Source: Eubacteriaceae bacterium ES3
GTDB lineage: Bacteria > Bacillota > Clostridia > Eubacteriales > Eubacteriaceae
Assembly (NCBI GenBank): GCA_030586155.1
Contig: CP130741.1
Span: 2,660,680 to 2,724,679 of the forward strand
Direction of reading: 5' to 3'
Length of the DNA: 64,000 bases
The position numbers and the translations under genes were made by a program. The notes beneath the pieces were generated by a model. It made no database searches, was not told the origin of the DNA, and was given only the letters and a program-made list of their open reading frames with translations. Shown here piece by piece: positions 4,017 to 33,816 of this stretch (positions within the stretch are counted from its first letter, which is position 1; each line of letters opens with the position of its first letter).

Positions 4017-4138
4017 AAGGATCCTGCAAATATTGAATTATTTCTTATTTTAAAACAGAATCCAGCGGCTGTAACCAAATAACCTATAAATCCTGACTCA
4101 CTAGACCCTTATCATCAACAGGTCTTTGACCAGAAAAA

Positions 4139-16998: not shown

Positions 16999-17020
16999 GG
17001 GATCACTTCCTTTCAAAAAT

Positions 17021-17061
17021 AAAAACGCGGTTATGACCGATTTCGAGTCGACCAAACCGCG
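17021..17061 (-). terminator. Intra-operon terminator-like hairpin between modA and modB
   Basis: On the minus strand CGCGGTT (17055-17061) pairs with AACCGCG (17026-17032), with further pairing in the loop, followed by TTTTTATTTTT. Its place between modA and modB suggests partial termination giving more ModA than ModBC. Confidence 0.7.
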
Positions 17062-17081
17062 ATCACTATAATCATAAACTT

Positions 17082-17876
17082 TTATTCGTTGACTGTAAAG
17101 CCATAGCCTTCAAAAATTCCTATTGCTGTATCAGACTGTAAAAATTCGATAAACGCCATTGAGGCATCGGCATTTTGGCTGCTTTTAATCATCGCTACCG
17201 GATATATAATCGGATCATGGGTATCCGCATCAGCTGTTGCTACCACTTTAACTGAATCAGATACTTTGGCATCTGTAGAATACACAACGCCGGCATCCAC
17301 GTTACCTGTTTCAACCCAGGTCAGAACTTCCTTAACATCTTTGCCAAATACTGCTTTAGCTGTTACCTGATCCAGGATACCAAGACTTGTAAAAACCTGT
17401 TTAGCATAACGACCCGCCGGTACACTTTCCATTTCACCAATTCCTATACTTGTAATTGACTCATCGGTTACACCTTCAAAACTATCAATGCTTGCCTCTG
17501 AATCTGCCGGCACGATTAAAACCACTTCATTTTGCAATAAATCAACCCAGCTTGCATCATCAAGTTCTCCAGCATCTTTTAAACCTGTCATTTCTTTCTT
17601 GGAAGCAGATAGAAAGACGTCTACTTGAGCCCCTTCAGAAATCTGTTGAGCCAACGTTCCTGATGAACCAAAATTGATAACCAGTGTTGTGTCTGGCGAT
17701 TCTTCTGCATAAGCCTCCTGAATATCTCCCATTGCTTCAGTTAAGCTGGCGGCTGCTGAAACAGTCAATGTTACTGAATCGCCACTTGTTTCGTTTGACT
17801 CCGTTGCACACGCTGTTAGGGCAATCGTCATTGCCAAAACCAATAAAACAATTAAAACCTTCTTCATACTTTTCAT
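17082..17876 (-). CDS. modA: Molybdate-binding lipoprotein
   Basis: The extracytoplasmic receptor that captures molybdate (or tungstate) for ModBC. The 264-residue protein has a lipoprotein signal: basic 'MKSMKK', a hydrophobic stretch and the lipobox 'LTAC' near residue 22. The mature part begins with a Ser/Thr-rich linker and has 'TVSAAASLTEAMGDI', the ModA opening whose Ser binds the oxyanion, then 'NFGSSGTLAQQIS' and 'DAGVVYSTDA'. The ATG at 17876 follows GGAGGG. A TTGACA/TATAAT promoter with 18-bp spacing lies at 17946-17975 on the minus strand. Confidence 0.93.
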   Translation of the reverse strand: MKSMKKVLIVLLVLAMTIALTACATESNETSGDSVTLTVSAAASLTEAMGDIQEAYAEESPDTTLVINFGSSGTLAQQISEGAQVDVFLSASKKEMTGLKDAGELDDASWVDLLQNEVVLIVPADSEASIDSFEGVTDESITSIGIGEMESVPAGRYAKQVFTSLGILDQVTAKAVFGKDVKEVLTWVETGNVDAGVVYSTDAKVSDSVKVVATADADTHDPIIYPVAMIKSSQNADASMAFIEFLQSDTAIGIFEGYGFTVNE

Positions 17877-17945
17877 TTTAATCCCTCCAAACAAAGTATA
17901 ACAAAATGAAGTGGTGTGTATCTTTGATTTCATTCTGTTTCACCC

Positions 17946-18022
17946 ATTATAGACTTTTTTTGTTCATCCTGTCAAGCGAAACGTTATTTAAAATTGCAAA
18001 ACAAAACGAATCATGATATAAT
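17946..18022. promoter_or_regulatory. Back-to-back promoters of modABC and its regulator
   Basis: Minus strand: TTGACA (17970-17975), 18 bp, TATAAT (17946-17951), for modA. Plus strand: TTGCAA (17994-17999), 17 bp, TATAAT (18017-18022), for the regulator. The two -35 boxes are only 18 bp apart, so one bound protein could act on both. AACGTT lies in the gap. No classical ModE palindrome is evident. Confidence 0.7.
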
Positions 18023-18050
18023 TATGAAAAATCATTGTTGGAGAATACTT

Positions 18051-19007
18051 ATGGAAAATAACCAGGCTTTAACTGCACAAGACGTCGCTGATATTTTAAA
18101 AATTGCCAAAAACACCGTCTATGAATTGATCAAAAGGGGCGAACTCAACTCCTATAAAGTTGGAAGAAAGGTCCGTTTTACCCAAGAAGATGTGGATGAG
18201 TACATTAAGCGCTCAAAAACCATTCAACCCTCTCCACAAGTAGCCGAGCCCATCAAAAGCATTCAGCAGGACACTGCCGATATCGCAATTTCTCCCTCTC
18301 AATCAGGAGATTTCATTATTTGCGGTCAGGATCTGATGCTGGATGTACTCAGCAGTCAGGTTGAACATTTTCAGGGAATCCGAACCCTGCGTTCCTATAT
18401 TGGCAGCTACAATGCTCTGGTTAACTTATATCAGGGAAATATTCAGGTCGCTACTGCCCATCTCTGGGACGGTGATTCCGACACCTACAATATCCCTTAC
18501 GTCAGGCGACTGCTCCCCGGTATTCCAACTGTAATAATCAATCTGGCTTATCGAACTCAGGGCTTATACATTAGAAAAGGAAATCCTAAAAAAATTTCCG
18601 GCTGGAAGGATTTTGGCCGCGATGACCTGGTGATGATCAACCGTGAAAAAGGTGCCGGCTCCCGAATACTTCTGGACGAACACCTGCGCCAAATGGGAAT
18701 AGATGCTCAGACTATCAATGGCTATAACCGCGAGAGCCAATCCCATTTTGCCGTTGCCAGCATCGTCAGCCGCGGTGGTGCCGACCTGGCTGTTGGTCAG
18801 GAAAAAGTCGCCCTGCAGATGAAAAACATCGATTTTATTCCACTGCAAAAGGAGCGCTATGACCTGGTAATTAAAAAATCAGATCTTAACGCTCCTGCCA
18901 TTAAAGCAATCCTGGAGATTATCCGTTCTGACGAATATCGGATGGAGTTTGAGGGAATTACCGGCTACGACATTTCTGAAATGGGCAATGTGATCGCCGA
19001 ACTATAA
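18051..19007 (+). CDS. HTH (excisionase-type) plus periplasmic-binding-like regulator, probable molybdate regulator
   Basis: A 318-residue two-domain protein. Residues 1-55 are an excisionase/MerR-like winged helix ('LTAQDVADILKIAKNTVYELIKRGEL', then 'YKVGRKVRFTQEDVDEYI'). Residues about 85-318 form a ModA-like ligand-binding fold of the PBP_like/PF12727 kind ('ICGQDLMLDVLSSQ', 'GSYNALVNLYQG', 'VMINREKGAGSRILLDEHLRQ'), but with no signal peptide, so it is cytoplasmic. Proteins of this build commonly sit beside mod or tungstate uptake genes and are thought to sense the oxyanion. The ATG at 18051 follows GGAG by seven bases and lies 29 bp after the -10. Its stop directly abuts the stop of the convergent NTP-transferase gene. 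Confidence 0.8.
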   Translation: MENNQALTAQDVADILKIAKNTVYELIKRGELNSYKVGRKVRFTQEDVDEYIKRSKTIQPSPQVAEPIKSIQQDTADIAISPSQSGDFIICGQDLMLDVLSSQVEHFQGIRTLRSYIGSYNALVNLYQGNIQVATAHLWDGDSDTYNIPYVRRLLPGIPTVIINLAYRTQGLYIRKGNPKKISGWKDFGRDDLVMINREKGAGSRILLDEHLRQMGIDAQTINGYNRESQSHFAVASIVSRGGADLAVGQEKVALQMKNIDFIPLQKERYDLVIKKSDLNAPAIKAILEIIRSDEYRMEFEGITGYDISEMGNVIAEL

Positions 19008-20753
19008 CTACCAGCCCGGCCATTGGATATCCGACTTAGCTTTGACCATCATCACCTGGCCATATCCGCACTTTTCTTTAACTGTATTCTCTAAGGGAAG
19101 CCCTTCAAAAAAAGACCTGATTACAGCCATAACACCTGCATGAGTCACTATTATCAGGGGTTCTTGCGACTCATTATCAAGCAATTCAAATAATGCCTTA
19201 TTGACACGGTAGGAAAGATCATAGTAGTTTTCACCACCGCTTATTTTATAAGACAGCCGATTTTTTCCCCGTTCTTCATATGCTCGGGGAAATTCTTTTT
19301 TTATGTCTTGAATCAATCTCCCGTCCCATTTACCTAAACTCATTTCCGCAAAAGCAGGAATTTCAAGTATCTCAATCCGCTTTCCAGTTCTTTCTGATAA
19401 ATTGCGACAAATTATTTCAGCTGTCTGTCTGGTCCGTTTCAAAGGACTGCTGTAAATCACTTTAATCGATTGATGCTGCAAGCCTTCAATAGCCGCCAGA
19501 CTATCTTTTCGCCCCTGTACATCCAGTTCTATATCCGTCTGCCCCAAAAATATTTTATCCTGATGTTGAACCGGCCGGCCATGACGAATCAGGATAATCT
19601 TTTTGTCAATTTCTTTGCGCGGTGGATTTTTTGCTTCTTTATATATTTCTTTTAGCGATCGACTCGCTTTTAACTCAATATATTTTTTAAGCTCCTCTGC
19701 TTTTGCAAATCTGTGTTCTATTGCCTGAACCGCTTCCAAATCATTTTCAAAGCGACTCAGCACTCTTTCCTTACGTTCGGCAAAATCGACAAATTCATGG
19801 CCAATAAAACATTTATCCGCTAAACAGAGTACATCCTGCTCCGTCACCGGTTCATTATTATCTTCTTTGGTATAAAACAAGTGGTTAGCCGTTAACCAGG
19901 CCAACCGATCCCAACCATAGCTTTCAAGAATTTCCGCACCTTTTTGATCGTGCTTTGCTTGTTTTCTGGCCACATCATGGAGAAGGCCAGCTGCAAAAAG
20001 CAGATTTTCATTCAAACCTTCACCCACCTGATTCAATACTACAGCCAAAGCATAAGCCAATTTAGCCACCGCCCGGGAATGTTCAACCACCTCATCTGGT
20101 GTGTTATTTTCTTTTAAAACAGCCTGACATTTTTTTTCATCAGGAATCTGTTTATTCTTATAAATCTCAAGCGCCTGATAAAAATCTTCGGGATGATCCA
20201 TATCAAAGACTGCGCCTTCAAAGACTGTCGGCGTTTTAATCATTCGTGCCTGATGTTTTTGGGTTATCGCTTTCAATCCCCCGGGCGCTCCACTGTCTAA
20301 TATTTCCTGGCGCAAATCCATTGGCAGTAGGGGTGGGTGTCCTTTCTTTCCCATAAAAATCGGAACAACCAGTGGCCTGGGATGGGCTTCAAAAACTTCA
20401 ATCATATCACTTAGAAGTTTTCCGGTAACCAATGCGTAATCTACCGGCAAAATGAAGAAACCCATATTCTTGGGGTTTATCGCTTGCACTCCTTTCTTGA
20501 CCGAAGTAAACATTCCATCCTTATAGCCTTCATTATATATACACTTAATCTTCTCTGTATTTATTGCATCTTCAATTACTTCAGCCTGATAACCTGTGAC
20601 CACCACAGTCTCTGAAAGGCCTGCCAATTCAGCTGCCCGAATCAGGCGGGTGATGGTTTTGACACCGCCAATCTCCAACAAGGCCTTTAGCTGACCCATG
20701 CGGGAAGAATAACCGGCTGCCAGAATAATCAGAGAGTAGGATTTAGTTTTCAT
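19008..20753 (-). CDS. NTP transferase (MobA-like) fused to HD and histidine-phosphatase domains, DVU_1551-like
   Basis: A 581-residue fusion. Residues 1-190 are a MobA/MocA-type nucleotidyltransferase ('IILAAGYSSRMGQLKALLEIGG' spans the NTP site; 'PVDYALVTG' is the metal-binding region). Residues about 210-330 are an HD domain ('HSRAVAKLAYALA', 'GLLHDVARKQ'). Residues about 370-581 are a phosphoglycerate-mutase-like histidine phosphatase ('ILIRHGRP', 'SSPLKRTRQTAE', 'VTHAGVM'). The set resembles the DVU_1551 family linked to molybdenum-cofactor nucleotide modification; the substrate is unknown. ATG at 20753 overlaps the xdhC 3' end by 11 bases, with no strong ribosome-binding site, so coupling is likely. 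It is the last gene of the operon. Confidence 0.8.
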   Translation of the reverse strand: MKTKSYSLIILAAGYSSRMGQLKALLEIGGVKTITRLIRAAELAGLSETVVVTGYQAEVIEDAINTEKIKCIYNEGYKDGMFTSVKKGVQAINPKNMGFFILPVDYALVTGKLLSDMIEVFEAHPRPLVVPIFMGKKGHPPLLPMDLRQEILDSGAPGGLKAITQKHQARMIKTPTVFEGAVFDMDHPEDFYQALEIYKNKQIPDEKKCQAVLKENNTPDEVVEHSRAVAKLAYALAVVLNQVGEGLNENLLFAAGLLHDVARKQAKHDQKGAEILESYGWDRLAWLTANHLFYTKEDNNEPVTEQDVLCLADKCFIGHEFVDFAERKERVLSRFENDLEAVQAIEHRFAKAEELKKYIELKASRSLKEIYKEAKNPPRKEIDKKIILIRHGRPVQHQDKIFLGQTDIELDVQGRKDSLAAIEGLQHQSIKVIYSSPLKRTRQTAEIICRNLSERTGKRIEILEIPAFAEMSLGKWDGRLIQDIKKEFPRAYEERGKNRLSYKISGGENYYDLSYRVNKALFELLDNESQEPLIIVTHAGVMAVIRSFFEGLPLENTVKEKCGYGQVMMVKAKSDIQWPGW

Positions 20754-21561
20754 TCGCAGCTTTAACCTGAATAATTTCAGCGGCAATACTGACTGCAATT
20801 TCTTCCGGTGTTTCAGCACCAATCGATAAACCAATTGGGGCATGAACCTGTTTTAACATATCCTCTGTCACACCTTCCTCACGCAGACGATCAAAAATGG
20901 TTTTGTTTTTTCGTTTGCTGCCAATCATGCCAATATAAGCGACTTTTTCCTGCAACGCCCTTTTTAAAACCTCATAATCCCAGCTGTGGCCTCTGGTGAC
21001 AATCACCAAATAGGTATTTTCATCACAGTCCAGTCCATCAAAAGCCGAACTAAAGTCTTTTACCAGCTTTACATCGCCAGCTTTTGGGAAACGCTGTCGA
21101 TTAACAAATTCTTTCCGATCATCGATCACCGTGGTTTTGAAACCAATATAGGCCAGCATTTTCTCAACTTCCAGACCAACATGGCCGCCGCCAAAGATAT
21201 AAACCTTATTAAAGGAAAGCCACTCCTGTCCAAAGTCCGGAGTATTATGAGCATCAATATATGCTATTCTGACCTTGGCATCACCACCGCACTGCATATC
21301 AATTCCCTGCTGATCTGCCGGAGTCAGGCTAAAATCAAAATCCTGTGTTTTTTTATCTTCCATTACCAGAGGACATCTTGCCTGTACCTCTGCTTCCAGT
21401 TTTCCTCCGCCTACAGTCCCATAAAAATTCTGTTCCTTATCCATGATCATGTAGGCCCCACGTTTTCTGGGCGTTGAGCCTACCGTTTCCAGCACTTCAG
21501 CCAGGACAAAATCCTCACCTTTTTCAATTAGATCTCTGCCAACTCTAACAATTTTTTGCAT
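20743..21561 (-). CDS. XdhC/CoxI family protein, molybdenum-hydroxylase maturation
   Basis: A 272-residue protein with an N-terminal XdhC_CoxI domain ('AEVLETVGSTPRKRGAYMIM', 'GTVGGGKLEAEV', 'QCGGDAKVRI') and a C-terminal Rossmann-like XdhC_C domain ('VYIFGGGHVGLEVEKML', 'VIDDRKEFVNRQRFP', 'IGMIGSKRKNKTIFDRL', 'HAPIGLSIGAETPEEIAVSI'). XdhC proteins carry molybdenum cofactor and support insertion of the sulfurated form into xanthine dehydrogenase-type enzymes. ATG at 21561 follows GAGGTG. The start overlaps the end of the radical SAM gene by 17 bases. Confidence 0.88.
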   Translation of the reverse strand: MQKIVRVGRDLIEKGEDFVLAEVLETVGSTPRKRGAYMIMDKEQNFYGTVGGGKLEAEVQARCPLVMEDKKTQDFDFSLTPADQQGIDMQCGGDAKVRIAYIDAHNTPDFGQEWLSFNKVYIFGGGHVGLEVEKMLAYIGFKTTVIDDRKEFVNRQRFPKAGDVKLVKDFSSAFDGLDCDENTYLVIVTRGHSWDYEVLKRALQEKVAYIGMIGSKRKNKTIFDRLREEGVTEDMLKQVHAPIGLSIGAETPEEIAVSIAAEIIQVKAANEN

Positions 21562-22843
21562 TCTTCTCACCTCTATATATAATATTATAAGCACAAAAGG
21601 GAATCATTGTCTTATCTTTCGTGGCAATCATCACCCGACATTTTTTAAGCCGTTCCAGATCCAGATTACCCTGGTCCTGAAATCCCATGGCGGTTATGGC
21701 AAAACTTTCTTCTCGAACTTTTTTTAAGATAATATCCCAATCGTCCTCCAGCTGAGTTACTTCTTTAAACGACCATTTAGTCTCAATAAAATCTCTGGCC
21801 TTTTCAATATTCGTATCCGAACAGGAACATTTTTTCTTATGAGTCGTTGGTTCCAGTTTCTTACCTACCCGTTTAAAATCTCCATGAAATGAACACCGGG
21901 GATGTCCAGATTCCAGGGGAACAAAATTTTCAGCTGTAAATTGCCCCTGAGACTGGTCTACCAGTTTTTTTATAAATTCCGGCGTGGTCAAGCGCCTGGC
22001 ATTTTCAATCTCCCCTGGGAAGCGACCAAAATAGCTTATCGGCTGATAGTGAATCCCTCTAACAATCGGACTATTATCAATGGCAAATTCAAGAATTTCT
22101 CCTAAATGATCATCATTAATACCAGGAACCACAGTTACAACCAGCACCACACCCAAACCGGCCTTTTTACATTGTTCAATCGCCTTTTGTTTTGACCGAA
22201 TCAGCTTCTGACCACGAATTTTCTGATAAATCTTATCATCAATCCCATCAAACTGCAAAAAAACTGATGATAGACCAGCTGCTTTCAGTTTTTCTGCCAG
22301 CTGAACGTCTTCCCCCAGCAAAAGCCCGTTAGTATTGAGCTGGATATAGGGGAAGCCCTTGTCTTTGCCCATTTCGATCACTCTTTCCAAATCTTTATAT
22401 AGGCTTGGTTCACCACCAGAAAGCTGAATATTATAAGGGCGTCCACTGGTCTTATTAAGCAAATTGTCATAAATCGCTTCTACTTGTAAAAGACTCAAAT
22501 CCTGTCCTTCCCCCTCTTCACTGGTGGCAAAACAGAATGAACAACGCTGATTACACCGACTGGTCAGTTCTATCAGGACACAGCATGCCTGTTGCTGGTG
22601 GTCCTGACAGGTTTCACAATAGTGGGGACAGATATTATCCGGGTCTTCAGTTTGAATATAATTGTCAGGTGACCATTTCTCCCATTGCAAAGCATCGTCC
22701 TGACATTCTTTCCAGACCAGTGTTTCAAATTCTCCATGTTCTGGACAAGTCCTTTTCAGATAGATCCCACCAGCCTTTAAAATTCGCTGTGCCGGTAACG
22801 TTTTTAAACAAACCGGACAGATACTTGCCGTTTTCTCATTCAT
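21545..22843 (-). CDS. trsS: Radical SAM protein, TrsS-like
   Basis: A 432-residue radical SAM protein with the cluster motif C-x3-C-x2-C in 'CNQRCSFC' (about 96-103), 'NIQLSGGEPSLYKDL' and 'NTNGLLL', as in the MoaA/PqqE branch. An N-terminal zinc-ribbon-like 'CPVC' with later 'CPEHG', and 'HYCETC', are extra Cys sites. The layout matches the TrsS family, which is often a selenoprotein and lies beside TrsM and DVU_155x genes; this copy has Cys throughout and no in-frame UGA. The reaction is unknown. It overlaps the CoA-ligase-like gene by eight bases. The family name is from memory of the gene neighbourhood. Confidence 0.72.
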   Translation of the reverse strand: MNEKTASICPVCLKTLPAQRILKAGGIYLKRTCPEHGEFETLVWKECQDDALQWEKWSPDNYIQTEDPDNICPHYCETCQDHQQQACCVLIELTSRCNQRCSFCFATSEEGEGQDLSLLQVEAIYDNLLNKTSGRPYNIQLSGGEPSLYKDLERVIEMGKDKGFPYIQLNTNGLLLGEDVQLAEKLKAAGLSSVFLQFDGIDDKIYQKIRGQKLIRSKQKAIEQCKKAGLGVVLVVTVVPGINDDHLGEILEFAIDNSPIVRGIHYQPISYFGRFPGEIENARRLTTPEFIKKLVDQSQGQFTAENFVPLESGHPRCSFHGDFKRVGKKLEPTTHKKKCSCSDTNIEKARDFIETKWSFKEVTQLEDDWDIILKKVREESFAITAMGFQDQGNLDLERLKKCRVMIATKDKTMIPFCAYNIIYRGEKNAKNC

Positions 22844-24143
22844 TTCTGCTGTCTAGAATCCTCTCTTTTCGCATCGCCTTTTGATCGATTTCTTTTATGC
22901 TTCCTCGAAAAATTTTAATACGACCTTTAAAAGCCGTTAAATCTTTGATCTTTTTTTTCAGCTTTCGTTTTAGCTTTGCGAAGTCATCCTCACTGCCTGA
23001 AAATATCAGTCCCAATTCCACTACAACACCATCTTTTTCAGTTTGCTTAATAGCAACTGTGAAATCCAATACTGCCTTGTATCCAAACAGTACATCTTCC
23101 AACTGCGAAAGACTTAAAATCTGACCCGCACCCAATTTAACGATATTCTCCCGACGACCTGATATTCGTTCCATCGTTTTTAAATTTGTTTTGCAAGGGC
23201 AATTATCTCTGAGAAAACGGCCATAATCGCCAGTACGATAACGAATCAGTGGCATCGCCTCTCTGCTTAGAGTTGTAAAGACAACTTCACCCCACTGCCC
23301 GTCAGGAACAACAAATCCAGTCTCCGGGTCGATTATTTCAAAATAAAGATCTGCTTCCCGCAAATGATAACCAGTTTTTGCCGGACAAAAAACACCGCCA
23401 CCGTAGCCCATTTCAGTACTGCCATAATGTTCAAAAACCTCTACACCCCATTTTAAAGCCAGGCGTCTGCTTAAAGCGGGTGACACATAATCGGTACTCA
23501 AAAGTACTGACCGCAAATATCCGGCCGCTTGAATAGCCTCTGCTTCAGCTTGCTGCGAAACCTCCAACAACTGTCTGGGAATCCCAACAATGCCAGTTAT
23601 CTTTTCTTCAAGAATCAGCTTCGAAACTGCATTAGCATCCTTAACCACACCATAAATATAAGCCTGGGCTCCTAACTTTTCCAGCGCAGTTTTTAAAAGA
23701 TCGCCAATGGAACCCGGCACCTCCCCGGGTAAGAGGACTAAAACCCGATCTCCACTTTTTGTAAAGATACCCATGCCATTTTTAAAAAAATCAACCGTCA
23801 GTGACAAATCGCTTGCGGAGAAGAATATTCGTTTGGCCAAACCAGTCGTTCCCGAAGTCTTAAGCGTAACAATTTTTTTAACCTTCTTGGGACTAATTGC
23901 CAGAAAATCCATTGGCTCCAATCTCAAATCATTTTCATCAGTAAATGGTAACTTCTTTATATCTTCTAATTCAAACATCATGTCCACTGGGTTAACTTTA
24001 AATTTTTCACGATAGTAACGACTTGATACAAACGCCCGATTAAGACTTTCTTTTAAACACTTTAACTGATAAGTCTTTAGTTCCTTCTCACTAAAATCAG
24101 GCTTGAAAATTTTTTGGGATATCCAATTATCGAGATTCTTCAC
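22836..24143 (-). CDS. PaaK-like AMP-forming ligase, DVU_1553-like
   Basis: A 435-residue adenylate-forming enzyme related to phenylacetate-CoA ligase. Visible signatures are 'LKTSGTTGLAKRIFFS' (P-loop, about 95-110), 'EHYGSTEMGYGGGV' (motif with the catalytic Glu), 'PLIRYRTGDYGRFLRD' and 'ISGRRENIVKLG'. It would activate a carboxylate as an acyl-AMP. The fixed place between the C_GCAxxG_C_C gene and the TrsS-like gene suggests the substrate belongs to cofactor chemistry rather than aromatic degradation, but that is inference. It lies three bases after the upstream gene in the operon. Confidence 0.78.
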   Translation of the reverse strand: MKNLDNWISQKIFKPDFSEKELKTYQLKCLKESLNRAFVSSRYYREKFKVNPVDMMFELEDIKKLPFTDENDLRLEPMDFLAISPKKVKKIVTLKTSGTTGLAKRIFFSASDLSLTVDFFKNGMGIFTKSGDRVLVLLPGEVPGSIGDLLKTALEKLGAQAYIYGVVKDANAVSKLILEEKITGIVGIPRQLLEVSQQAEAEAIQAAGYLRSVLLSTDYVSPALSRRLALKWGVEVFEHYGSTEMGYGGGVFCPAKTGYHLREADLYFEIIDPETGFVVPDGQWGEVVFTTLSREAMPLIRYRTGDYGRFLRDNCPCKTNLKTMERISGRRENIVKLGAGQILSLSQLEDVLFGYKAVLDFTVAIKQTEKDGVVVELGLIFSGSEDDFAKLKRKLKKKIKDLTAFKGRIKIFRGSIKEIDQKAMRKERILDSRNE

Positions 24144-24145
24144 GC

Positions 24146-24592
24146 TTATTCCCGTTCTCCTGGTTCATAACCATTTTCCTCAAGCAGTTCAAGCATTTTC
24201 ACATAACCTTCTTTAATCAATTCCCCACACTTAACCGGATAAGTCGCTCCAGCCGACTCAAATTGAGTGAGGCCAATCAAATCGATACACTCTGTACTAC
24301 CATTTTCTGCTTCAAACCACTCCATAAACTCCTGTACCATTCGATTATAACCAGGCTTCTCATACTCGCCATCAGCCCCTTTACCAGCATAAAGACCAAA
24401 CACTGCAATCGCACCGGTTAAGACGCCGCAGGTTTTCTGAGAGCCGCCTATTCCATTACACAAACCACCCATTGCCCGTATCAGATCCTGATTTTCCAGG
24501 CCTTCCAGATCCAGGGCCATTTTCATTATAATCTGGCTACAGCAATAGCCTTTTGATGCAAGCCTAAATAAATCGAATTCAAGTTCATCCAT
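24146..24592 (-). CDS. C_GCAxxG_C_C family redox protein
   Basis: A 148-residue protein with 'GYCCSQIIMKMA' (about 18-29), 'GGLCNGIGGSQKTCGVLTGA' (about 49-68) and a later conserved Cys, matching the C_GCAxxG_C_C cysteine-rich family (a DVU_1555-like member here). These proteins often carry an N-terminal TAT signal, absent here, and are presumed redox or metal-binding. The ATG at 24592 has GGGAG ten bases upstream. The longer upstream frame overlaps the methyltransferase gene and is not preferred. Confidence 0.75.
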   Translation of the reverse strand: MDELEFDLFRLASKGYCCSQIIMKMALDLEGLENQDLIRAMGGLCNGIGGSQKTCGVLTGAIAVFGLYAGKGADGEYEKPGYNRMVQEFMEWFEAENGSTECIDLIGLTQFESAGATYPVKCGELIKEGYVKMLELLEENGYEPGERE

Positions 24593-24611
24593 CCCTATTC
24601 TCCCTTCATTT

Positions 24612-25319
24612 TTATTTTTTTTGAACAATCATCATAAAATAACCAGGTTTACAGGATTTAAGTCCCTTCTGAAAATCCGACTGGCACTGCTTTCCGTCAC
24701 CCATATACTCAGACCAGAAATTATTCATGCTGCCGTATTCAAAAATAAGCTTAATGGTCAAATCTTTTAACAAGGATGATACTTCATTCAAACAGATAAT
24801 TTTAAAACCGGCTTTTTCCAGTGTCTGAACTAAACTTTCCAGGTCATGAAGTTTACTGATGCAGGTATTTAATCCCTTATTTTCTAGGCTTCTTAATTGC
24901 CCTGGTCTCTTTGCATAGAGATCAGCAATCCCCCAATACCCATCATTTTGCAGTACTCTGTGAACTTCGTTCACAACCAGAGGCGCCTCCATCAGAGACA
25001 GGCTGCATTCCGACAGTACGCAATTAAAGGAATCTGCTTTAAAAGGCAATGCTTCTCCTTTTCCATTGACACAAGAAAGACCTGACTCACGGCATTCCTG
25101 CAACAGAATTTTAGAGCAGTCCAATCCAGTTCCCATGGTTCCCAATCGGTCTTTTAAATAGTTGAGGGTAGCACCGCGGCCACAACCGATATCCAGTAGT
25201 TGATTGTCAGCATTCAGACAGTTTTCTTCAATCATCAACTTGGCCAGTGCATGACCACCAGGTCTTAATGTCAATCCCAGACTTTTTTTCAAGCCCTCCT
25301 CTTCGTATAAATTTTTCAC
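24612..25319 (-). CDS. trsM: SAM-dependent methyltransferase, TrsM-like
   Basis: A 235-residue class I methyltransferase. Motif I is 'LLDIGCGRGATLNYL' (about 41-55), followed by 'GTGLDCSKILLQECRE', then 'FNCVLSECSLSLMEAP' as motif II and 'DGYWGIADLY'. Several Cys cluster near the active-site side, as in TrsM proteins, which can have Sec in the motif I region; here it is Cys. GTG at 25319 is the start, with GGAGG 11 bases upstream. It lies three bases after the zinc-ribbon gene. Substrate unknown; its constant company with the TrsS-like enzyme suggests a shared modification. Confidence 0.72.
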   Translation of the reverse strand: MKNLYEEEGLKKSLGLTLRPGGHALAKLMIEENCLNADNQLLDIGCGRGATLNYLKDRLGTMGTGLDCSKILLQECRESGLSCVNGKGEALPFKADSFNCVLSECSLSLMEAPLVVNEVHRVLQNDGYWGIADLYAKRPGQLRSLENKGLNTCISKLHDLESLVQTLEKAGFKIICLNEVSSLLKDLTIKLIFEYGSMNNFWSEYMGDGKQCQSDFQKGLKSCKPGYFMMIVQKK

Positions 25320-25322
25320 GCC

Positions 25323-25529
25323 TTACTTATCCTCCAGACTTTTCTCCACTTCCAGCATTTTACCCATTGCCAGTGCTTCATCAATTAAAACCATCTTGCA
25401 TTTCGGGCATTTTAACAGTTCCACTTCGAAAGAGCCCTCCAGGTAATTCACTTTTGTTTTTTCCATCACCAGAGTTTCCTTACATTTTCCACATTTCCAG
25501 TTTCCGGCACTATTAATCTCGCTGTTCAT
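25323..25529 (-). CDS. Small zinc-ribbon redox protein, DVU_1557-like
   Basis: A 68-residue protein with two C-x2-C pairs, 'CGKC' (about 13-16) and 'CPKC' (about 41-44), in a short beta-rich frame ending in a charged helix. This fits a rubredoxin-like or zinc-ribbon fold. In related clusters this small gene sits between the TrsM-like and dicluster oxidoreductase genes, as here. It abuts the next upstream gene with no gap (25529/25530). An electron-transfer role is inferred. Confidence 0.68.
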   Translation of the reverse strand: MNSEINSAGNWKCGKCKETLVMEKTKVNYLEGSFEVELLKCPKCKMVLIDEALAMGKMLEVEKSLEDK

Positions 25530-27881
25530 TTAATCCTCCACCACTTCCATTCGGTGACTGTATGTATTGACAAGTTCAATTAGCTGATCTGCTATTTTAT
25601 ACTGCGCCCAAAACGTAACCTCGTCAAGTCTCAAACGGGAAAGGTATTCATCCTTTTCATCATCATAAAAATATTCATTATTCTCGATGGCATTAAGAAT
25701 AACCGATTCCAGATCTTCTCTAAGAATGTAGCGTTTTTCCATTATATCCGAAACACTTTCTTCGATCTTCAAGTTTTCCATTCGTGATTCTCCCTCCAGA
25801 GTTTCACTCCAGATGTTTTTGCACAGGTTTATTTTAAGACTTGCACGATTTTCATGACGAGCTGACAAGGTGGGATTTTTTCTCAATGCCAGAACTTCCG
25901 GATCCCCGCCATATATGAGATCTAGTATATGAAAGGTTCTCTGCCCCTCGGATACCATCTGATCCTTACACATGGCGCAGTAGACCAATAGAGCCCCTTG
26001 TGATTCCAACATTCGATCTTTGATAAAATCTTTTGCCTGGTCAGAATTAGCATAAGATACCAGACCACCATAGCCACAGCATTTAGTATTTTCTTTATGA
26101 TACGGAAGTTCCTTAACTGCATACCCCAGTTTATTAGCGATATTTCTAATGTTCTGATGAATATTTGCCTGATTTCTGGTTGCACAGGCATCATGAACAA
26201 AAATTTCCGGACGACCAGGACGAACCTTTGGCTGTGGAAGTCCATATTGGTCATATATTTCCCAGAGTGAGACAGTTTTAATTTGCGGCAGATATTTTTC
26301 AAAGACTGCCATACAACTTGAACAGGCCAAAATAAAGGTTGGTTCACCCATTTCCTCCCAGACCGTCCGTATCCTTTCTATATTTTCATCAGCCAGAACC
26401 TTTCTCCCTGCCCAATCAGCCGGAGCACCGCAACAGCCAAGAAAGAGTCCAACATCATCCTGAGTCCCCTTATCCTTAATGCTGGCAACCAGATAACGAT
26501 AAATGTCTTCGATATACTGATGATGAGAAGCCGACAGTTGACAACCGGGATAAAACAGAAAGCCGGTTTTTCCAGTCCCCTTATAAAGTCCTCTGATATA
26601 AGGATCAAAATTAACCTGGGGATAAAAAAACAAGTCTTTATTGCTCTCCTTATCAGGTTGCTTTTTGACCAGCCAGAAACGGTCACTGTTGGAAAATTTC
26701 ATATCTTTCAGGGCGAAGTCGTGGGCTGACAAAGGCATTTTTTTACGTGCAACCATACTTTCGCGAGTTTCATGAATAATATCTTTCATACTGATATCAA
26801 GAAAACAGGCTTCTTTGCACAAACCGCATTCAGTACAGGAGTTAATCATCTGATTGGCATAGTGGGTACCGAGGATAATACGCTCATTCTGGTTAATCTG
26901 ACGAATATAAGCATCAGGCGTCATCTCAAATCGCTGCATGTGAACACAAGCTTTAATACAGGCATCACACTGACATTTTAAACAGCGTCCAGCCTCTTGT
27001 GTTGCCTCTTCCTCTGTGAATGCTGAACCCACGGGCTCAACAGCCTCAATTACAGAGAAATCTTTGGTTTCATATTTTAGCGGTGTTTCAAATACCCCCT
27101 CACGCTCTCTTGACGCCATCATCGATACATTACCGATAAAACGATCCAGCGAGACTGCAGCACGACGGCCAGTGCTGATTCTCTGAATGACTGAATCTTT
27201 TTCTAAAATAAGCATTCCTCCAGCAAAAATCCTGGAGTCACCGACCTGAAAAGTCTGCTGATTGATATCCAGTGATTCGTGCCACTCACCCGTCCCCAGA
27301 TAAACTCCGTCGTATTCACTGAGCAGCTCAGTCAAATCTTTAATCTGAGTATTCAGTTTAACTTTAAATTTAGTGGTATCAAAGATTTTCAAACTTTCTG
27401 CAATCTCTTCAAAACACAGCTGGTTTCCTTCAAATTGCCAGAAGCCACCTCCCAAGCGATCGCTTTTCTCACAAATTGTCACCTGGTACCCTTTGCTTGA
27501 TAAATCCAAGGCGGCGACCAGGCCAGATATTCCACCGCCAATTACCGCAACCTTCCCTTTTACTCGGGTAACAGGGAGCTTTTTTTTCTTAGGTGCCGTG
27601 CCATAAGTCAGAACAGCTTTCTCAATCTCACCAATCTGCAAAGCCCCCCCCTTTTCATTTCGAACACAGGACTTTTCACAGGGATGATCGCAAATTTTTC
27701 CAACCAGCTTTATTAAAGGCATTTTTTTTTCAAGCAGTCCGTAAGCTGCGTTGTAATCCCCTTTTTCTACTGCTTTCATCATCCCAATTACATCCACGTG
27801 AATAGGACAGGCTGCAAAACATGCTGGTGGTTCACTCCTAATACACTTTTCTCCAATTGACAGCAAATGTTCCAGATCCAT
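25530..27881 (-). CDS. FAD-dependent oxidoreductase / ferredoxin-dicluster / CCG-domain protein
   Basis: A 783-residue multidomain electron-transfer protein. Residues 1-75 hold the glutamate-synthase-like cluster region ('CFAACPIH', 'CDHPCEKSC'). Residues about 105-300 carry an FAD site ('KVAVIGGGISGLVAALDL'). Two [4Fe-4S] motifs follow ('CLKCQCDACIKAC' and 'CTECGLCKEAC', about 300-360). The C-terminal half has two heterodisulfide-reductase-type CCG motifs ('YPGCQLS...GCCGAPADW' and 'CGYGGLVSY...CAMCKDQ'). It resembles the pyridine nucleotide-disulfide oxidoreductase/dicluster-binding protein found in this neighbourhood. It probably feeds electrons to, or takes them from, the island's molybdenum pathway; NAD(P) specificity is not visible. 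Confidence 0.8.
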   Translation of the reverse strand: MDLEHLLSIGEKCIRSEPPACFAACPIHVDVIGMMKAVEKGDYNAAYGLLEKKMPLIKLVGKICDHPCEKSCVRNEKGGALQIGEIEKAVLTYGTAPKKKKLPVTRVKGKVAVIGGGISGLVAALDLSSKGYQVTICEKSDRLGGGFWQFEGNQLCFEEIAESLKIFDTTKFKVKLNTQIKDLTELLSEYDGVYLGTGEWHESLDINQQTFQVGDSRIFAGGMLILEKDSVIQRISTGRRAAVSLDRFIGNVSMMASREREGVFETPLKYETKDFSVIEAVEPVGSAFTEEEATQEAGRCLKCQCDACIKACVHMQRFEMTPDAYIRQINQNERIILGTHYANQMINSCTECGLCKEACFLDISMKDIIHETRESMVARKKMPLSAHDFALKDMKFSNSDRFWLVKKQPDKESNKDLFFYPQVNFDPYIRGLYKGTGKTGFLFYPGCQLSASHHQYIEDIYRYLVASIKDKGTQDDVGLFLGCCGAPADWAGRKVLADENIERIRTVWEEMGEPTFILACSSCMAVFEKYLPQIKTVSLWEIYDQYGLPQPKVRPGRPEIFVHDACATRNQANIHQNIRNIANKLGYAVKELPYHKENTKCCGYGGLVSYANSDQAKDFIKDRMLESQGALLVYCAMCKDQMVSEGQRTFHILDLIYGGDPEVLALRKNPTLSARHENRASLKINLCKNIWSETLEGESRMENLKIEESVSDIMEKRYILREDLESVILNAIENNEYFYDDEKDEYLSRLRLDEVTFWAQYKIADQLIELVNTYSHRMEVVED

Positions 27882-27895
27882 TGCATCACCCTCGA

Positions 27896-28936
27896 TTATC
27901 GACCGAACCCGCAGTTCGGGAATACACAGGTTTCACATTCCAGACATACTCCACCATGTCCCAGTCTTATAATATCCATTCTTGAAACTGGATCGTTAGC
28001 CAATAAACGGGGTATGATCAAATCAAAAATTGTCCTTCTGGCATACATAACACATCCCGGTAACCCGACGATTGGAATCTGTTCAAGAGATCCCGGCAGC
28101 TGATCCAGATAACCTAACATAAACATAGCACCAGGTAGTGTAGGAGCCCCATAAGTAATAATTTTAGCCCCAGTATTTCTAATCCCAACCGGCGTTACAT
28201 CATCAGGATCCACCGACATCCCGCCGGTGCAGGTAATCAATGTCGCTCCCATATCGATTAGTTTGAAAATAGCTTCAGTAATCATATCAGCATTATCATT
28301 GGCAAAAATCTGACCGACCACTTCACAACCCAGTTCGTCAAATTTACTGCGAATTACCGGCCCAAATTTGTCTTCAATGCGTTTGTAAAATACCTCACTG
28401 CCCGTCGTCACAATCCCAATTTTAAACGGCTGAAGGGGCATTACTTTAATAACTGGCCCCTTTTCGCGACACAGCAATTCCATTTTTTCAATATTTTTCA
28501 CATTGGTAATTAGGGGAATAATCCGTGTTCCGCCAATCACCATCCCTGCTTCAACCAGGCGGTTTCCGTGAATGGTTGATGCCATCAAATCTTCAATACC
28601 ATTTATTTGATCCAGTAAGTCAACATCGATTTTTAATAATCCCGCCTCTTTGGCAATCAATTTGACCTTTCCTTCAGCTGGTTCAGTAAGTTTAATCCCT
28701 TCACCTATTAAAGCTTTCGCCATTCTCTCAGCAGCATCATTTTCATGAATATCATCTTCCGAATATTCAATAATACCAATATGTTCTTTTCCCATATTGA
28801 GTAATTGAGGCACATCTTCACTGCTAATCATATGACCTTTCTTAAACCGGGGCCCCTTAAATTCTCCTGGTAAAATCTGGGTCATATCATGAGCCAGCAA
28901 CATTCCGATCGCATCCTGAACAGGTACAATTTTCAT
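27896..28936 (-). CDS. MoeA-like molybdopterin-binding protein
   Basis: A 346-residue protein whose central part has the MoCF/MogA-like fold: 'KIGIVTTGSEVF' (about 170-181), 'TCTGGMSVDPDDVTP' (about 245-260, the molybdopterin-binding loop) and 'PGAMFMLGYL'. The C-terminus adds a short Cys cluster, 'CLECETCVFPNC', not found in MoeA itself. It belongs to the molybdopterin-binding proteins linked to selenium-dependent molybdenum hydroxylases. ATG at 28936 has AAAGGAG six bases upstream. It is the first gene of the minus-strand operon that runs to 19008, with all internal gaps at or below 20 bases. Confidence 0.82.
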   Translation of the reverse strand: MKIVPVQDAIGMLLAHDMTQILPGEFKGPRFKKGHMISSEDVPQLLNMGKEHIGIIEYSEDDIHENDAAERMAKALIGEGIKLTEPAEGKVKLIAKEAGLLKIDVDLLDQINGIEDLMASTIHGNRLVEAGMVIGGTRIIPLITNVKNIEKMELLCREKGPVIKVMPLQPFKIGIVTTGSEVFYKRIEDKFGPVIRSKFDELGCEVVGQIFANDNADMITEAIFKLIDMGATLITCTGGMSVDPDDVTPVGIRNTGAKIITYGAPTLPGAMFMLGYLDQLPGSLEQIPIVGLPGCVMYARRTIFDLIIPRLLANDPVSRMDIIRLGHGGVCLECETCVFPNCGFGR

Positions 28937-29278
28937 AGTTGTCTCCTTTTGATTCATCATTTAGCAAGCGTAAAGGATTTCATTTCTCTTAATCGTAGCC
29001 TAACAGGCAGGCGATTTAACCGCTCATTTATTACACTTTATTTCATTATAAACTTTACTATTTTAAAAGTCGAATTGTTCACGCCATATTTTTGTTGCTT
29101 AAATATATTATGCGTCTATTTAATATTGATTTAAATTATATTAAATAACTTTTATTTAATTTTATTCATTTATATGGATTAGTCGTTCATTTAACGAACA
29201 CAAGTGAGAATCCAGCACATAAATCGCACTAGTATAAAAGCTGTATTTGCTTAAATTTGCAGATTAACAATAAAAAAA
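28937..29278 (-). promoter_or_regulatory. Leader and promoter region of the molybdenum island operon
   Basis: About 340 bases with no gene. On the minus strand a hairpin lies near 28990-29025: GCCT pairs with AGGC, and TTAA-ATC with GAT-TAA. It sits roughly 60 bases before the first gene. The conserved molybdenum-cofactor riboswitch core was not found. The rest is AT-rich with no recognised sites. Confidence 0.4.
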
Positions 29279-29343: not shown

Positions 29344-30096
29344 TTATCGCATAAATTTAGGCAACATTTTTAATAAACTAACCAAAATTACCGTGTACAC
29401 AGGAATCAAAAAGAAATTAGTTACAATTCTCGCGGGCAGAATTACCGCAACTGCCTGTCCATACAACACACTCAAGAAAATTGTGTTCAACATAATTGAG
29501 GTGATCAGTTGTGTCACACTAACCATAAATAGAATATGATCGACACGATATTCGCCTCCAAGATTCATTTTCTTGACGACGACAACCGGGAAAATCGCGA
29601 ATGCCAGCATCAGTAAAGCGAACAGGATAACAAAGACCAGATTAACTGGCTCCCCAGCATACATGACTTGTCCTCCAGCAAAACTGAAACTCCCCGAAAC
29701 CGCCAGCAGAATCATTGCAAACGCTACAAAACCAAGGTTAAACCACTCTAGAAATTTCACATCTTTTTTCTTTAGAAGCAGATAGAGAAAGCCAGGAATA
29801 AATCCAGTCAAGGCGCTTGCCAGCGTAAAACCAATAAAAAATGGTCCACCTGGTTTAATAATAAAACATAGAATATCAGAAATAAAACCAACAGCGAATC
29901 CGGCAACCGGTCCAAGTAATATTCCACTCAACATAATCGGCAAAGCAGTTAAGTTAAGTCTCAATGATGGAAAACCACCAAGCGGAATATAAACCTCAAA
30001 CAGAATCTTCAGTACAATACTGAGGGCAATAAACAGGCCACAGTTGACAACTACCCGCGTTCTCGTGGCACTACCGACAAAAGCATTACTTTTCAT
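29344..30096 (-). CDS. folT: Folate-type ECF transporter substrate-binding (S) component
   Basis: A 250-residue membrane protein with six or seven helices. The N-terminus 'RVVVNCGLFIALSIVLKILFEVYIPLGGFPSLRLNLTALPIMLSGILLGP' region shows the Ala-x3-Ala-like surface and the long loop typical of ECF S components. 'GPVAGFAVGFISDIL' and 'GPFFIGFTLASALTGFIPGF' match the folate subgroup. It would bind folate and dock on a shared EcfAAT module encoded elsewhere. Assignment to folate rests mostly on the tetrahydrofolate riboswitch in its leader. GGAGG precedes the ATG. Confidence 0.85.
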   Translation of the reverse strand: MKSNAFVGSATRTRVVVNCGLFIALSIVLKILFEVYIPLGGFPSLRLNLTALPIMLSGILLGPVAGFAVGFISDILCFIIKPGGPFFIGFTLASALTGFIPGFLYLLLKKKDVKFLEWFNLGFVAFAMILLAVSGSFSFAGGQVMYAGEPVNLVFVILFALLMLAFAIFPVVVVKKMNLGGEYRVDHILFMVSVTQLITSIMLNTIFLSVLYGQAVAVILPARIVTNFFLIPVYTVILVSLLKMLPKFMR

Positions 30097-30144
30097 TTTT
30101 CCTCCTTAAAGTAATGCTTCCGCAACCTACAATCTTCATTGTAA

Positions 30145-30233
30145 CAGCGGAAGCGACAAGGTACCGCATTTGAGATATTTCGTTTAAAGGCAACTTCCCA
30201 TCCTTTAACACTTCACGCACCTTGTCTACTCTG
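30145..30233 (-). ncRNA. Tetrahydrofolate (THF-I) riboswitch
   Basis: Read on the minus strand the leader contains, in order, AGAGTAG, GCGTGAAGTG, GGATGGGAAGTTGCC, AACGAAA, TGCGGTACCTTG and CGCTTCCGCT. These are the conserved segments of the THF-I aptamer, including ACAAGGT with ACCTTGT closing the long helix. Downstream, GCTTCCGC at the aptamer's 3' end can instead pair with GCGGAAGC at 30116-30123, ahead of the GGAGG of folT. This gives two exclusive folds. Ligand binding would be expected to lower folT expression. Confidence 0.88.
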
Positions 30234-30390
30234 AATTAAATTTTCGATTCATTCTACCATGTATCGAAAACGCTAACAAGGATAAAATATTAACAGAATA
30301 TTAGCCAAACAATGATAATTTTAAAAAATATGGGTAAATAAAATACCATAATGTAAATTTAATCTATGGAACAAACAGGAGGAGAAAATC

Positions 30391-30780: not shown

Positions 30781-30856
30781 GCTGACGTGGCACAGTTGGT
30801 AGCGCAACTGATTCGTAATCAGTAGGTCGGGGGTTCGATTCCCCCCGTTAGCTCCA
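30781..30856 (+). tRNA. tRNA-Thr(CGT), integration target
   Basis: The acceptor stem GCTGACG pairs with CGTTAGC. The anticodon loop TTCGTAA gives CGT, reading ACG. CCA is encoded at 30854-30856. Its 3' part, from the anticodon stem on, is repeated at 43282, marking it as the attachment site of the adjoining element; the gene stays intact. Confidence 0.95.
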
Positions 30857-30948
30857 GAAGAAAACGCATAAGACCGCCTTTTATGGGTTGTCTTTTTTAT
30901 TTGGCTGGTTGTGGGAGAGGGTGAAAAACCCGTAGTTGGGGACAGTTT
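30811..30948. repeat. Left attachment-site repeat
   Basis: 138 bp, identical to 43282-43419 apart from one base (CCGCC versus CAGCC in AGAC-GCC context). It begins at ATTCGTAATC within tRNA-Thr and ends at GGGGACAGTTT. Confidence 0.92.
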
Positions 30949-30986
30949 GGGGACACTTTTCGAAAAAGTTAAAGCCCCGTAGTAAA

Positions 30987-32372: not shown

Positions 32373-32384
32373 GGTTATTCCTCC

Positions 32385-33158: not shown

Positions 33159-33180
33159 GTTTACCACCCCTTCAATTATC

Positions 33181-33290
33181 TATTTGTTGCTTTTTAAGTT
33201 ATTCGTTGCTTATTTGTTGTTTATTGCACTATTTGTTGCTATAATTATATCAAGGTATCGAATTGTTTGCAAGCGCAACAACAAATTTAA
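33181..33290. promoter_or_regulatory. Repressor operator region with TATTTGTTGC repeats
   Basis: TATTTGTTGC at 33181-33190 and 33230-33239, TATTCGTTGC at 33200-33209 and TATTTGTTGT at 33211-33220 form a direct array at 19, 11 and 19-bp steps. An inverted relative, GCAACAACAAAT, lies near 33276-33287. The array fills the divergent gap and is the natural binding site of the C1/Cro pair. Confidence 0.7.
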
Positions 33291-33306
33291 ATAGGAGGAA
33301 AAACTC

Positions 33307-33486: not shown

Positions 33487-33487
33487 T

Positions 33488-33775: not shown

Positions 33776-33816
33776 CAGTGATAAAAGGACATAATGGAAG
33801 AGGTGAAAAAGACTGA

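Follow-up and report, generated by a model that had tools for sequence, protein, structure and literature searches.

A nine-gene operon of Eubacteriaceae bacterium ES3 as a candidate accessory and electron-transfer system of Mop-type aldehyde oxidoreductase

Introduction

The aldehyde oxidoreductase Mop of Desulfovibrio gigas was the first member of the xanthine oxidase family with a crystal structure, which has been resolved to 1.28 Å, and the passages that deal with it in PMC10223205 describe an enzyme with the molybdopterin cytosine dinucleotide (MCD) cofactor, two Fe/S centers and no flavin. Flavodoxin is a putative partner, which docking and an explicit proposal have put in the place of the "missing" flavin domain (PMC10223205); the physiological electron partner of Mop is only putative. 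The genes that surround mop have been curated, family by family, in NCBIfam (NF045663–NF045669, NF045645 and NF045646, several of them under DVU_155x locus names). Here, we analyze an operon of this kind in Eubacteriaceae bacterium ES3 (assembly GCA_030586155.1), whose genome is a single contig of 3.39 Mb (CP130741.1). The window, that is, the whole stretch of 64,000 nt that was analyzed, comprises bases 2660680–2724679 of the genome, and the operon occupies window positions 28960 to 19008 on the minus strand. On balance, this operon probably supplies the accessory and electron-transfer functions for a molybdenum aldehyde oxidoreductase of the Mop (D. gigas) type.

One gene of the set encodes TrsS, a radical S-adenosylmethionine (SAM) enzyme whose closest relative of solved structure is Tes (also GDGT-MAS). 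Passages of PMC9433317 describe how Tes couples two sp3 carbons, the intermediate being attached to a sulfur of one of its clusters, and list as its metal sites a rubredoxin-like iron (C9, C12, C33 and H36), an N-terminal cluster (C73, C77, C80 and a His), the radical SAM cluster and, in the C-terminal part, another cluster with a labile Met439; in addition, Tyr459 is reported to be completely conserved among 1000 homologues. TrsS itself appears in a part of PMC13188914 as a named selenoprotein in some organisms, with a citation of Haft and Tolstoy 2025 (PMC12013261). No paper with a functional assignment for TrsS or the DVU_155x genes came up in our literature search, although Haft and Tolstoy 2025 may already describe the link to Mop; the adjacent NCBIfam accession numbers suggest that these curators know of it.

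Results

TrsS and Mop occur in nearly the same genomes

For eight of the nine genes of the operon, the best NCBIfam model is a family of the Mop neighborhood (DVU_155x type), and in seven of these cases the curated cut-off is exceeded (the DVU_1551, DVU_1553, DVU_1555, DVU_1556, DVU_1557, dicluster and TrsS families). The eighth, an XdhC-family protein, matches the aldehyde-oxidoreductase-linked type NF045664 with 324.8 bits, below the cut-off of 350. The locus resembles the described neighborhood in its gene types and, for the most part, in their order, and its genome carries Mop; it differs from that neighborhood in that mop lies about 19 kb away, a MoeA-like gene stands at the head, the ligase gene precedes trsS, the nucleoside triphosphate (NTP) transferase is fused to a phosphatase, and XdhC remains under its model cut-off.

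We examined 291 genomes of the class to which ES3 belongs. TrsS and Mop exceed their cut-offs in the identical 11, with neither in the remaining 280, whereas some molybdenum hydroxylase (PF02738) is present in 55. The original prediction had linked the operon to molybdenum hydroxylases and had pointed to a xanthine or nicotinate hydroxylase; the link is supported and narrows to the Mop type, and xanthine or nicotinate hydroxylase is not supported as the partner enzyme. Three genomes of this class have TrsS-like matches of 341–365 bits, below the cut-off, and all three (G004, G132 and G205) lack Mop, while one genome (G101) has a sub-cut-off piece of Mop without TrsS. In a second class, reached through genome G304 and represented by 199 genomes, 139 have both proteins, 54 neither, four only Mop and two only TrsS. 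The Fisher values are 4e-20 for the first class and 3e-41 for the second, not corrected for the relatedness of the genomes. For the second class, the 143 Mop genomes comprise 142 over the cut-off plus one below it (G680); TrsS matches occur in 145, 139 of them over the cut-off, and 141 were used, including two sub-cut-off cases (G666 and G696), after four matches of 334–346 bits (G644, G652, G665 and G709) had been set aside as Tes-like. If these four were counted, the TrsS-only genomes would number six. In two of the Mop-only genomes (G674 and G706) the contig breaks off next to mop, just where the cassette would be expected, and in one of the TrsS-only genomes (G609) the cassette begins at a contig end. 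Altogether, all 11 Mop genomes of the first class and 139 of the 143 of the second also encode a Tes-type radical SAM enzyme. It is unusual for a molybdenum enzyme that has been studied so much to occur so seldom, within these two sampled classes, without such a radical enzyme.

The cassette is not confined to these classes. Public genomes were scanned with a TrsS alignment, and in the best 80 of at least 562 loci the cassette recurs, whole or in part, in several phyla. Besides TrsS, these 80 loci contain the ligase (73), the C_GCAxxG protein (73), the methyltransferase (68), the zinc ribbon (67), the dicluster protein (66), Mop (55, with more than 800 bits in 48), the NTP transferase (41), XdhC (39), the MoeA-like protein (16) and a sigma-54 activator match (11), where partial matches are counted and many loci are cut by contig ends. 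The gene set is thus more than a chance association. Mop was also searched genome-wide in 26 genomes, namely 25 with no Mop match at the locus plus that of L050: it was found over the cut-off in 16 and only below the cut-off, in several cases partially, in six; of the four genomes without Mop, one encodes a different PF02738 protein, whereas the other three gave no match to this family. In a Chloroflexota-type group (the phylum of G314, an Anaerolineae metagenome-assembled genome, MAG), Mop exceeds the cut-off in one of 201 genomes, which is too rare for a test of co-occurrence.

The mop gene and the cassette of strain ES3 lie apart

Four proteins of the ES3 genome match PF02738. Three of them belong to a purine-type cluster near 2.38–2.40 Mb, and the fourth is Mop, encoded at genome positions 2657528–2660236, about 0.4 kb past the left edge of the window and about 19 kb from the end of the operon. 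It scores 1612 bits on NF045668 (cut-off 1100), and its full length is covered by matches to the crystal structures 1dgj and 1sij. The mop locus (L011:5931–12243) continues after mop with genes for a further XdhC, a sigma-54 activator and a further C_GCAxxG protein. The order in Acetobacterium fimetarium (L069) is Mop, dicluster protein, zinc ribbon, methyltransferase, C_GCAxxG protein, TrsS and ligase, followed by XdhC, NTP transferase, phosphatase, sigma-54 activator and C_GCAxxG protein. The ES3 mop locus therefore resembles this operon minus the NTP transferase, the phosphatase and the whole stretch that begins with the dicluster gene and ends with the ligase gene, which suggests that an original cassette was lost or replaced there.

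The cassette of the window has its own affinities. Four of its proteins are closest to the A. bakii operon (L051), that is, the dicluster protein (58% identity), the ligase (46%), XdhC (58%) and the NTP transferase-HD-phosphatase (47%); the best relatives of TrsS are 46–50% identical, A. bakii (49%) among them, and the MoeA-like protein is closest to other loci. In A. bakii, mop is directly upstream of the dicluster gene, and its product is 81% identical to the ES3 Mop over 587 residues, the L051 locus beginning inside mop. Either mop and the cassette became separated in ES3, we infer, or the cassette was replaced, and in both cases the two were kept.

The dicluster protein is a candidate electron acceptor of Mop

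Over 98 loci (L017 and L033–L129), 57 of the 60 mop open reading frames (ORFs) of more than 800 bits have the dicluster gene as the cassette gene that follows next. Its product, a member of the family titled "pyridine nucleotide-disulfide oxidoreductase/dicluster-binding protein", combines a GltD-like N-terminal Fe-S region, a flavin adenine dinucleotide (FAD) fingerprint, a dicluster and two complete CCG motifs. The CCG cysteines 447/483/484/520/523 and 566/601/602/635/638 are kept in all 69 aligned dicluster proteins; short or low-scoring ORFs were omitted from this and the other family alignments. Proteins of the heterodisulfide reductase type share the two complete CCG motifs and the dicluster, but the protein of the operon differs from them by its fusion to the GltD-like FAD N-terminus and by an extra C-terminal domain. 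From this anatomy and the gene adjacency we infer that the dicluster protein is a dedicated flavin partner and electron acceptor of Mop. The operon thus names a candidate for the putative partner.

TrsS resembles Tes in its architecture

By sequence, the best solved relative of TrsS is Tes (7tol; 4.1e-82, 31% identity). An AlphaFold2 model of TrsS (predicted local distance difference test, pLDDT, 88.1; predicted template-modeling score, pTM, 0.90) also matched 7tol by fold (2.1e-41, template-modeling score 0.82, root-mean-square deviation 6.2). The residues aligned with the Tes ligands (C9, C12, C33, H36, C72, C76, C79 and H82) are present in 49 of 49 TrsS sequences, as are the radical SAM cysteines C97, C101 and C104 (CX3CX2C), Met386, C317, C402 and C417. 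Met386 (codon 21686–21688) aligns with Met439 of Tes, and C317, C402 and C417 are candidate ligands of a C-terminal cluster. In a larger alignment of 101 rows, Met386 is kept in 98 and five rows depart from the ligand set: three sequences below the TrsS cut-off (L037, L039 and L043) have Ser at 386 and miss the C-terminal cysteines, and two, apparently second tandem copies (in L038 and L048), lack C72, C76, C79 and H82.

TrsS thus shares with Tes (7tol, 7tom) the fold, the rubredoxin-like site, the N-terminal His cluster, the radical SAM cluster and the C-terminal Met. It differs from Tes in its gene context with a molybdenum enzyme, in its score on the NCBIfam Tes model (332 bits, below the cut-off of 450), and in the position of Tyr459, which is occupied by V (38), I (6), E (4) or T (1) in the 49 sequences and is Tyr in none of the 101. 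As the Tes ligands are kept, TrsS probably forms a C–C or C–S bond; it is not a Tes, but probably performs similar bond-forming chemistry.

Selenocysteine was considered as a guide to the catalytic residues and was rejected, because no in-frame TGA was found at an internal TrsS position when the loci L017, L033–L129 and L130–L139 were read through. The 72 in-frame TGAs inside profile matches at these loci are nearly all at gene ends or in poor alignments. One is located at a conserved Cys of the C_GCAxxG_C_C gene of L048, upstream of 3641–4063 (+), and possibly encodes selenocysteine. In two MAGs, TrsS is fused to a C-terminal DUF5714 (L055:3013–5163, Peptococcaceae; L056:9968–12145, Desulfosporosinus).

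Conserved residues of the ligase, the methyltransferase and the C_GCAxxG protein

The DVU_1553 ligase matches the phenylacetate-coenzyme A (CoA) ligase PaaK over the whole length (PDB 4r1l, 3.6e-41). With PaaK (4r1l, 2y27) it shares, besides this length, the Cys/His site and the C-terminal Lys: C253, H260 and C317 are present in 87 of 87 sequences, C315 in 86 (with one gap), and K426 in 79 of the 81 sequences that have a residue at that position. It differs from PaaK in that it has an NCBIfam family of its own and scores 141.9 on the curated PaaK model, far below the cut-off of 646.3. In the methyltransferase, Cys105 (codon 25005–25007) is present in 66 of 67 sequences, and in the C_GCAxxG protein Cys 30, 67, 114 and 134 are found in 83 of 83. 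An arsenic chemistry of the ArsM kind was considered for the methyltransferase and rejected, as arsenic methyltransferases matched at about 1e-19 and were outscored by phosphoethanolamine and natural-product methyltransferases.

The zinc ribbon ends in an invariant lysine

The zinc ribbon DVU_1557 ends at the same residue, a Lys, in 81 of 81 sequences, including that of the window; the tails are LEDK (75), LEEK (3), MEDK (2) and LEGK (1), and C13, C16, C41 and C44 are likewise kept in all 81. One match of less than 60 bits, from L048 in genome G111 and with the tail LEGK, was omitted, and the divergent zinc ribbons of G111 and G660 both end in LEGK. For comparison, the commonest C-terminal end is common to only 15–45% of the rows in eight other cassette families, after rows cut by locus ends had been dropped. 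The tail codons contain GGAGG in 55 of the 81 loci, likely the ribosome-binding site of the next gene. Where GGAGG is missing (26 loci), 24 still have LEDK, and where not even a four-base piece of AGGAGG is present (18 loci), 16 do; the Asp and Lys codons of the tail vary at the third base, 32 of the 81 genes ending in AAG. These features suggest that the zinc ribbon may serve as a carrier via its invariant C-terminal Lys. An AlphaFold2 model (pLDDT 74.9) consists of the ribbon and a C-terminal helix at residues 51–66.

A known carrier of similar build is LysW, an amino-group carrier and small zinc ribbon that holds its substrate on a conserved acidic C-terminal tail, EDWGE. DVU_1557 is likewise a small zinc ribbon. 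Its candidate attachment tail is fixed in 81 of 81 sequences, but reads LEDK and not EDWGE and overlaps, in its codons, the likely ribosome-binding site of the next gene. No LysW model was among the NCBIfam matches of the zinc ribbon up to E 1. Homology to LysW, which neither a model nor the fold supports, was therefore rejected, and LysW is retained as an analogy only.

trs clusters without a neighboring mop gene

At several loci, a tandem of TrsS genes is followed by the ligase gene and no mop is found at that place (L048 in G111, L038 in G226, and L152 and L153 in G660). G111 and G226 have Mop elsewhere in the genome. In the assembly of G660, no PF02738 match was found up to E 1e-10; its trs pieces are on two contigs and form a divergent core of two TrsS-type proteins, a ligase, a methyltransferase, a zinc ribbon and a stand-alone dicluster C-terminal domain. 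Homologues of this domain, of 93–104 amino acids (aa), score 56.6 (L048) and 35.1 bits (L153) on the family profile. The methyltransferase is present in L048 and L153 and the C_GCAxxG protein in L048, and the order small protein, zinc ribbon, methyltransferase in the tandem-TrsS clusters is that of the Mop cassette. The neighbors are HGD-D-like proteins (L038 and L152), a BadF-type ATPase (L153), DUF5714 proteins (L038 and L152) and a dihydrolipoyl-dehydrogenase-type flavoprotein, which exceeds the model cut-off in L048 and is represented by the same Pfam domains in L153.

The original prediction held that the operon should not be present in genomes without any molybdenum hydroxylase. The divergent trs core of G660, an assembly in which no such enzyme was detected, contradicts this in part, so that the trs genes are not simply maturation factors of molybdenum hydroxylases. 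Cassettes without a PF02738 match were also seen in G609 and in the MAGs G296, G300 and G301; there the cassette is on short or end-of-contig pieces, and gaps in the assembly are the likelier reason. The different redox system beside the trs core of G660 suggests that the product is not a part of the molybdenum cofactor. We read the trs core as a portable unit attached to a replaceable redox enzyme, the absence of the hydroxylase resting on one genome. A further step, that this core, made up of DVU_1557 as the carrier, the ligase, TrsS, the methyltransferase, the C_GCAxxG protein and the C-terminal domain of the dicluster protein, builds a carrier-bound molecule by Tes-type radical C–C or C–S coupling and that the molecule serves both Mop and a molybdenum-free BadF/HGD-D reductase, is put forward tentatively and must be considered doubtful. 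If it were true, an organic partner would have gone unrecognized in a textbook enzyme with 40 years of study behind it.

Three proposed layers of the system and the alternatives

In the proposed Mop system, the nine genes would act in three layers. The MoeA-like protein, the MocA-like cytidylyltransferase DVU_1551 and XdhC would make, process and insert the MCD cofactor of Mop, as their families indicate, and the FAD/dicluster/double-CCG protein would accept electrons from the [2Fe-2S] clusters of Mop. The likely functions of both layers follow from known families. The third layer is the least certain: the trs core may act on a small molecule held on the C-terminal Lys of DVU_1557, where the ligase DVU_1553 would adenylate and load an acid, TrsS would use radical chemistry of the Tes kind, in which the intermediate is bound to a cluster sulfur, to form a C–C or C–S bond, and the molecule would be finished or reduced by the methyltransferase and the C_GCAxxG protein. 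The product would serve the neighboring redox enzyme. The earlier impression of small-molecule or cofactor chemistry in the gene set is supported. What is unusual is that the TrsS cassette includes a protein that looks like a carrier, with a product that is unnamed in the literature searched.

Several observations weigh against this proposal. In ES3, Mop is not adjacent to the cassette. One genome of the second class (G536) encodes Mop over the cut-off on a 270-kb contig and lacks TrsS and DVU_1557, and no cassette match was found in the 19 kb around mop (L151, G536:C4:24000–43000); it is the one clear, genuine exception to the link between Mop and trs. In another (G680), the cassette is broken, with no TrsS match and no ligase match in the 18 kb that were read. 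As to electron transfer, a passage of PMC10223205 describes an in vitro chain from D. gigas Mop via flavodoxin and cytochrome c3 to hydrogenase, so that Mop does not necessarily hand its electrons to the dicluster protein. For the trs core, the Desulfovibrio Mop passages of the same source mention MCD and two Fe/S centers and no further organic cofactor. The M439A variant of Tes stays active and Met439 is not essential, according to a part of PMC9433317, so that the retention of this Met in TrsS points to a shared architecture rather more than to a role in catalysis. Finally, the C-terminal blocks of the zinc-ribbon model have a low pLDDT (67 and 55), a fold search with this model gave no match passing E 0.001, and part of the conservation of LEDK may be due to the ribosome-binding site of the next gene.

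Alternatively, the target of the trs genes might be the Mop polypeptide itself or its molybdenum cofactor, with adenylation, methyl transfer and radical chemistry leading to a specially modified pterin or residue required for activity. The nearly exclusive co-occurrence with Mop, the loci shared with XdhC and the MocA-like gene, and the retention of both mop and the cassette in ES3 despite their separation would all fit such a maturation role; however, the passages on D. gigas Mop, which list no modification besides the known centers (PMC10223205), and the divergent trs core of G660, an assembly without a PF02738 match, speak against it, and we consider it unlikely. Somewhat less likely still is a catabolic pathway in which Mop oxidizes an aldehyde, the ligase activates the acid as its CoA thioester, and a particular, perhaps aromatic, substrate is handled by TrsS together with the methyltransferase and the heterodisulfide-reductase-like protein, a BadF/HGD-D reductase taking care of the acyl-CoA in the variant system. 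The BcrAD_BadFG and HGD-D families act on acyl-CoAs in known pathways, and the presence of such proteins in the clusters without mop, the whole-length match of the ligase to PaaK with its Cys/His residues and C-terminal Lys, and the sigma-54 activator matches in 11 of the 80 loci are in line with catabolism. Yet no conserved further CoA enzymes were seen, only the cassette profiles having been searched across all loci; the gene set is common to very diverse hosts, and catabolism requires no carrier-like protein with a fixed C-terminus.

Two further readings can be set against the Mop system. TrsS might be a bacterial synthase of tetraether or membrane-spanning lipids, the operon altering membranes, given that Tes is its closest solved relative by sequence and fold and that the ligands are kept. 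This is very improbable: in addition to the low score on the Tes model and the missing Tyr459 (0 of 49 and 0 of 101), the co-occurrence is with Mop, and the genomes of the first class with only 341–365-bit matches have no Mop. That the operon serves a selenium-dependent molybdenum hydroxylase is scarcely credible and largely refuted. ES3 does encode a selenium-dependent xanthine dehydrogenase and yqeB, a marker of selenium-dependent hydroxylases, and TrsS is a selenoprotein in some organisms, as mentioned above. However, of the 33 genomes with yqeB among the 291 of the first class, only four belong to the 11 that have TrsS over the cut-off, and 29 to the other 280; the idea that the operon is always accompanied by a selenium-dependent hydroxylase thus had to be abandoned.

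Organization of the operon and its surroundings

All nine genes are on the minus strand, and neighbors overlap or are at most 14 bases apart, which confirms the compact operon of the original prediction (Table 1). The MoeA-like protein has a Met at residue 9 in 20 of 20 aligned sequences; its likely start is there, at 28936, as in the original prediction. Its C-terminus contains C339-x2-C342-x2-C345-x4-C350, again in 20 of 20. For the DVU_1551 fusion protein, in which NF045665 covers residues 38–390 and PF00300 (136.2 bits) residues 416–602, the real start is probably near 20753. No Rfam family was found within the operon. Scans for promoter-like sites (37 versus 28.4 expected) and terminator-like sites (9 versus 10.2 expected) were uninformative.

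Table 1. Features of the operon and of the adjacent genes (window coordinates; HTH, helix-turn-helix; PBP, periplasmic-binding protein)
Feature	Position	Strand	Support
MoeA-like molybdopterin-binding protein (first gene)	27896–28960	−	PF00994 77.7 bits; passes no NCBIfam cut-off
FAD + dicluster + double CCG oxidoreductase (DVU_1558 type)	25530–27881	−	NF045663 947 bits (cut-off 530)
C-terminal domain of the dicluster protein (residues ~690–783)	25530–25814	−	separate small ORF elsewhere, family-profile match
Zinc ribbon DVU_1557, 68 aa	25323–25529	−	NF045645 96.7 bits (cut-off 60)
Leu-Glu-Asp-Lys tail codons of the zinc ribbon	25326–25337	−	GGAGG inside
Methyltransferase DVU_1556 (TrsM of the original prediction)	24612–25319	−	NF045667 198.5 bits (cut-off 155)
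C_GCAxxG_C_C redox-type protein DVU_1555	24146–24628	−	NF045669 163.2 bits (cut-off 103)
PaaK-like adenylating ligase DVU_1553	22836–24143	−	NF045666 423.6 bits (cut-off 300)
TrsS radical SAM enzyme, Tes-like	21545–22843	−	NF045646 510.8 bits (cut-off 490)
XdhC-family sulfuration/insertion factor	20743–21594	−	PF13478 157.6 bits, PF02625 62.2 bits
MocA-like NTP transferase + HD + histidine phosphatase fusion DVU_1551	19008–20843	−	NF045665 356.2 bits (cut-off 315)
HTH + PBP-like regulator, convergent with the operon, divergent from mod	17994–19007	+	PF12727 241.3 bits, PF12728 60.7 bits
modABC-type transporter	15254–17933	−	modA 194.4 bits, modB 249.3 bits, both over cut-off

The operon had also been placed beside modABC. 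The adjacency holds, with modA and modB at 16315–17933, while the ATPase gene (15254–16315) matches ModC TIGR02142 with 193.8 bits, below the cut-off of 285.05. As a plus-strand regulator gene lies between mod and the operon, mod adjoins the operon and is a separate transcription unit.

Three further features of the window are of a different kind. A tetrahydrofolate riboswitch (71.5 bits) at 30143–30235 (−) precedes a gene for a folate-family energy-coupling-factor transporter (29344–30096). The region 30781–36267 contains a tRNA gene followed by integrase-like, repressor-like and phage-primase-like ORFs, which were read from the sequence and have no support from family searches; it looks like an integrated element next to the tRNA gene. 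On the other side of the mod genes, a radical SAM enzyme of the AmmeMemoRadiSam system is encoded at 9540–10370 (−), with an NCBIfam match over the cut-off.

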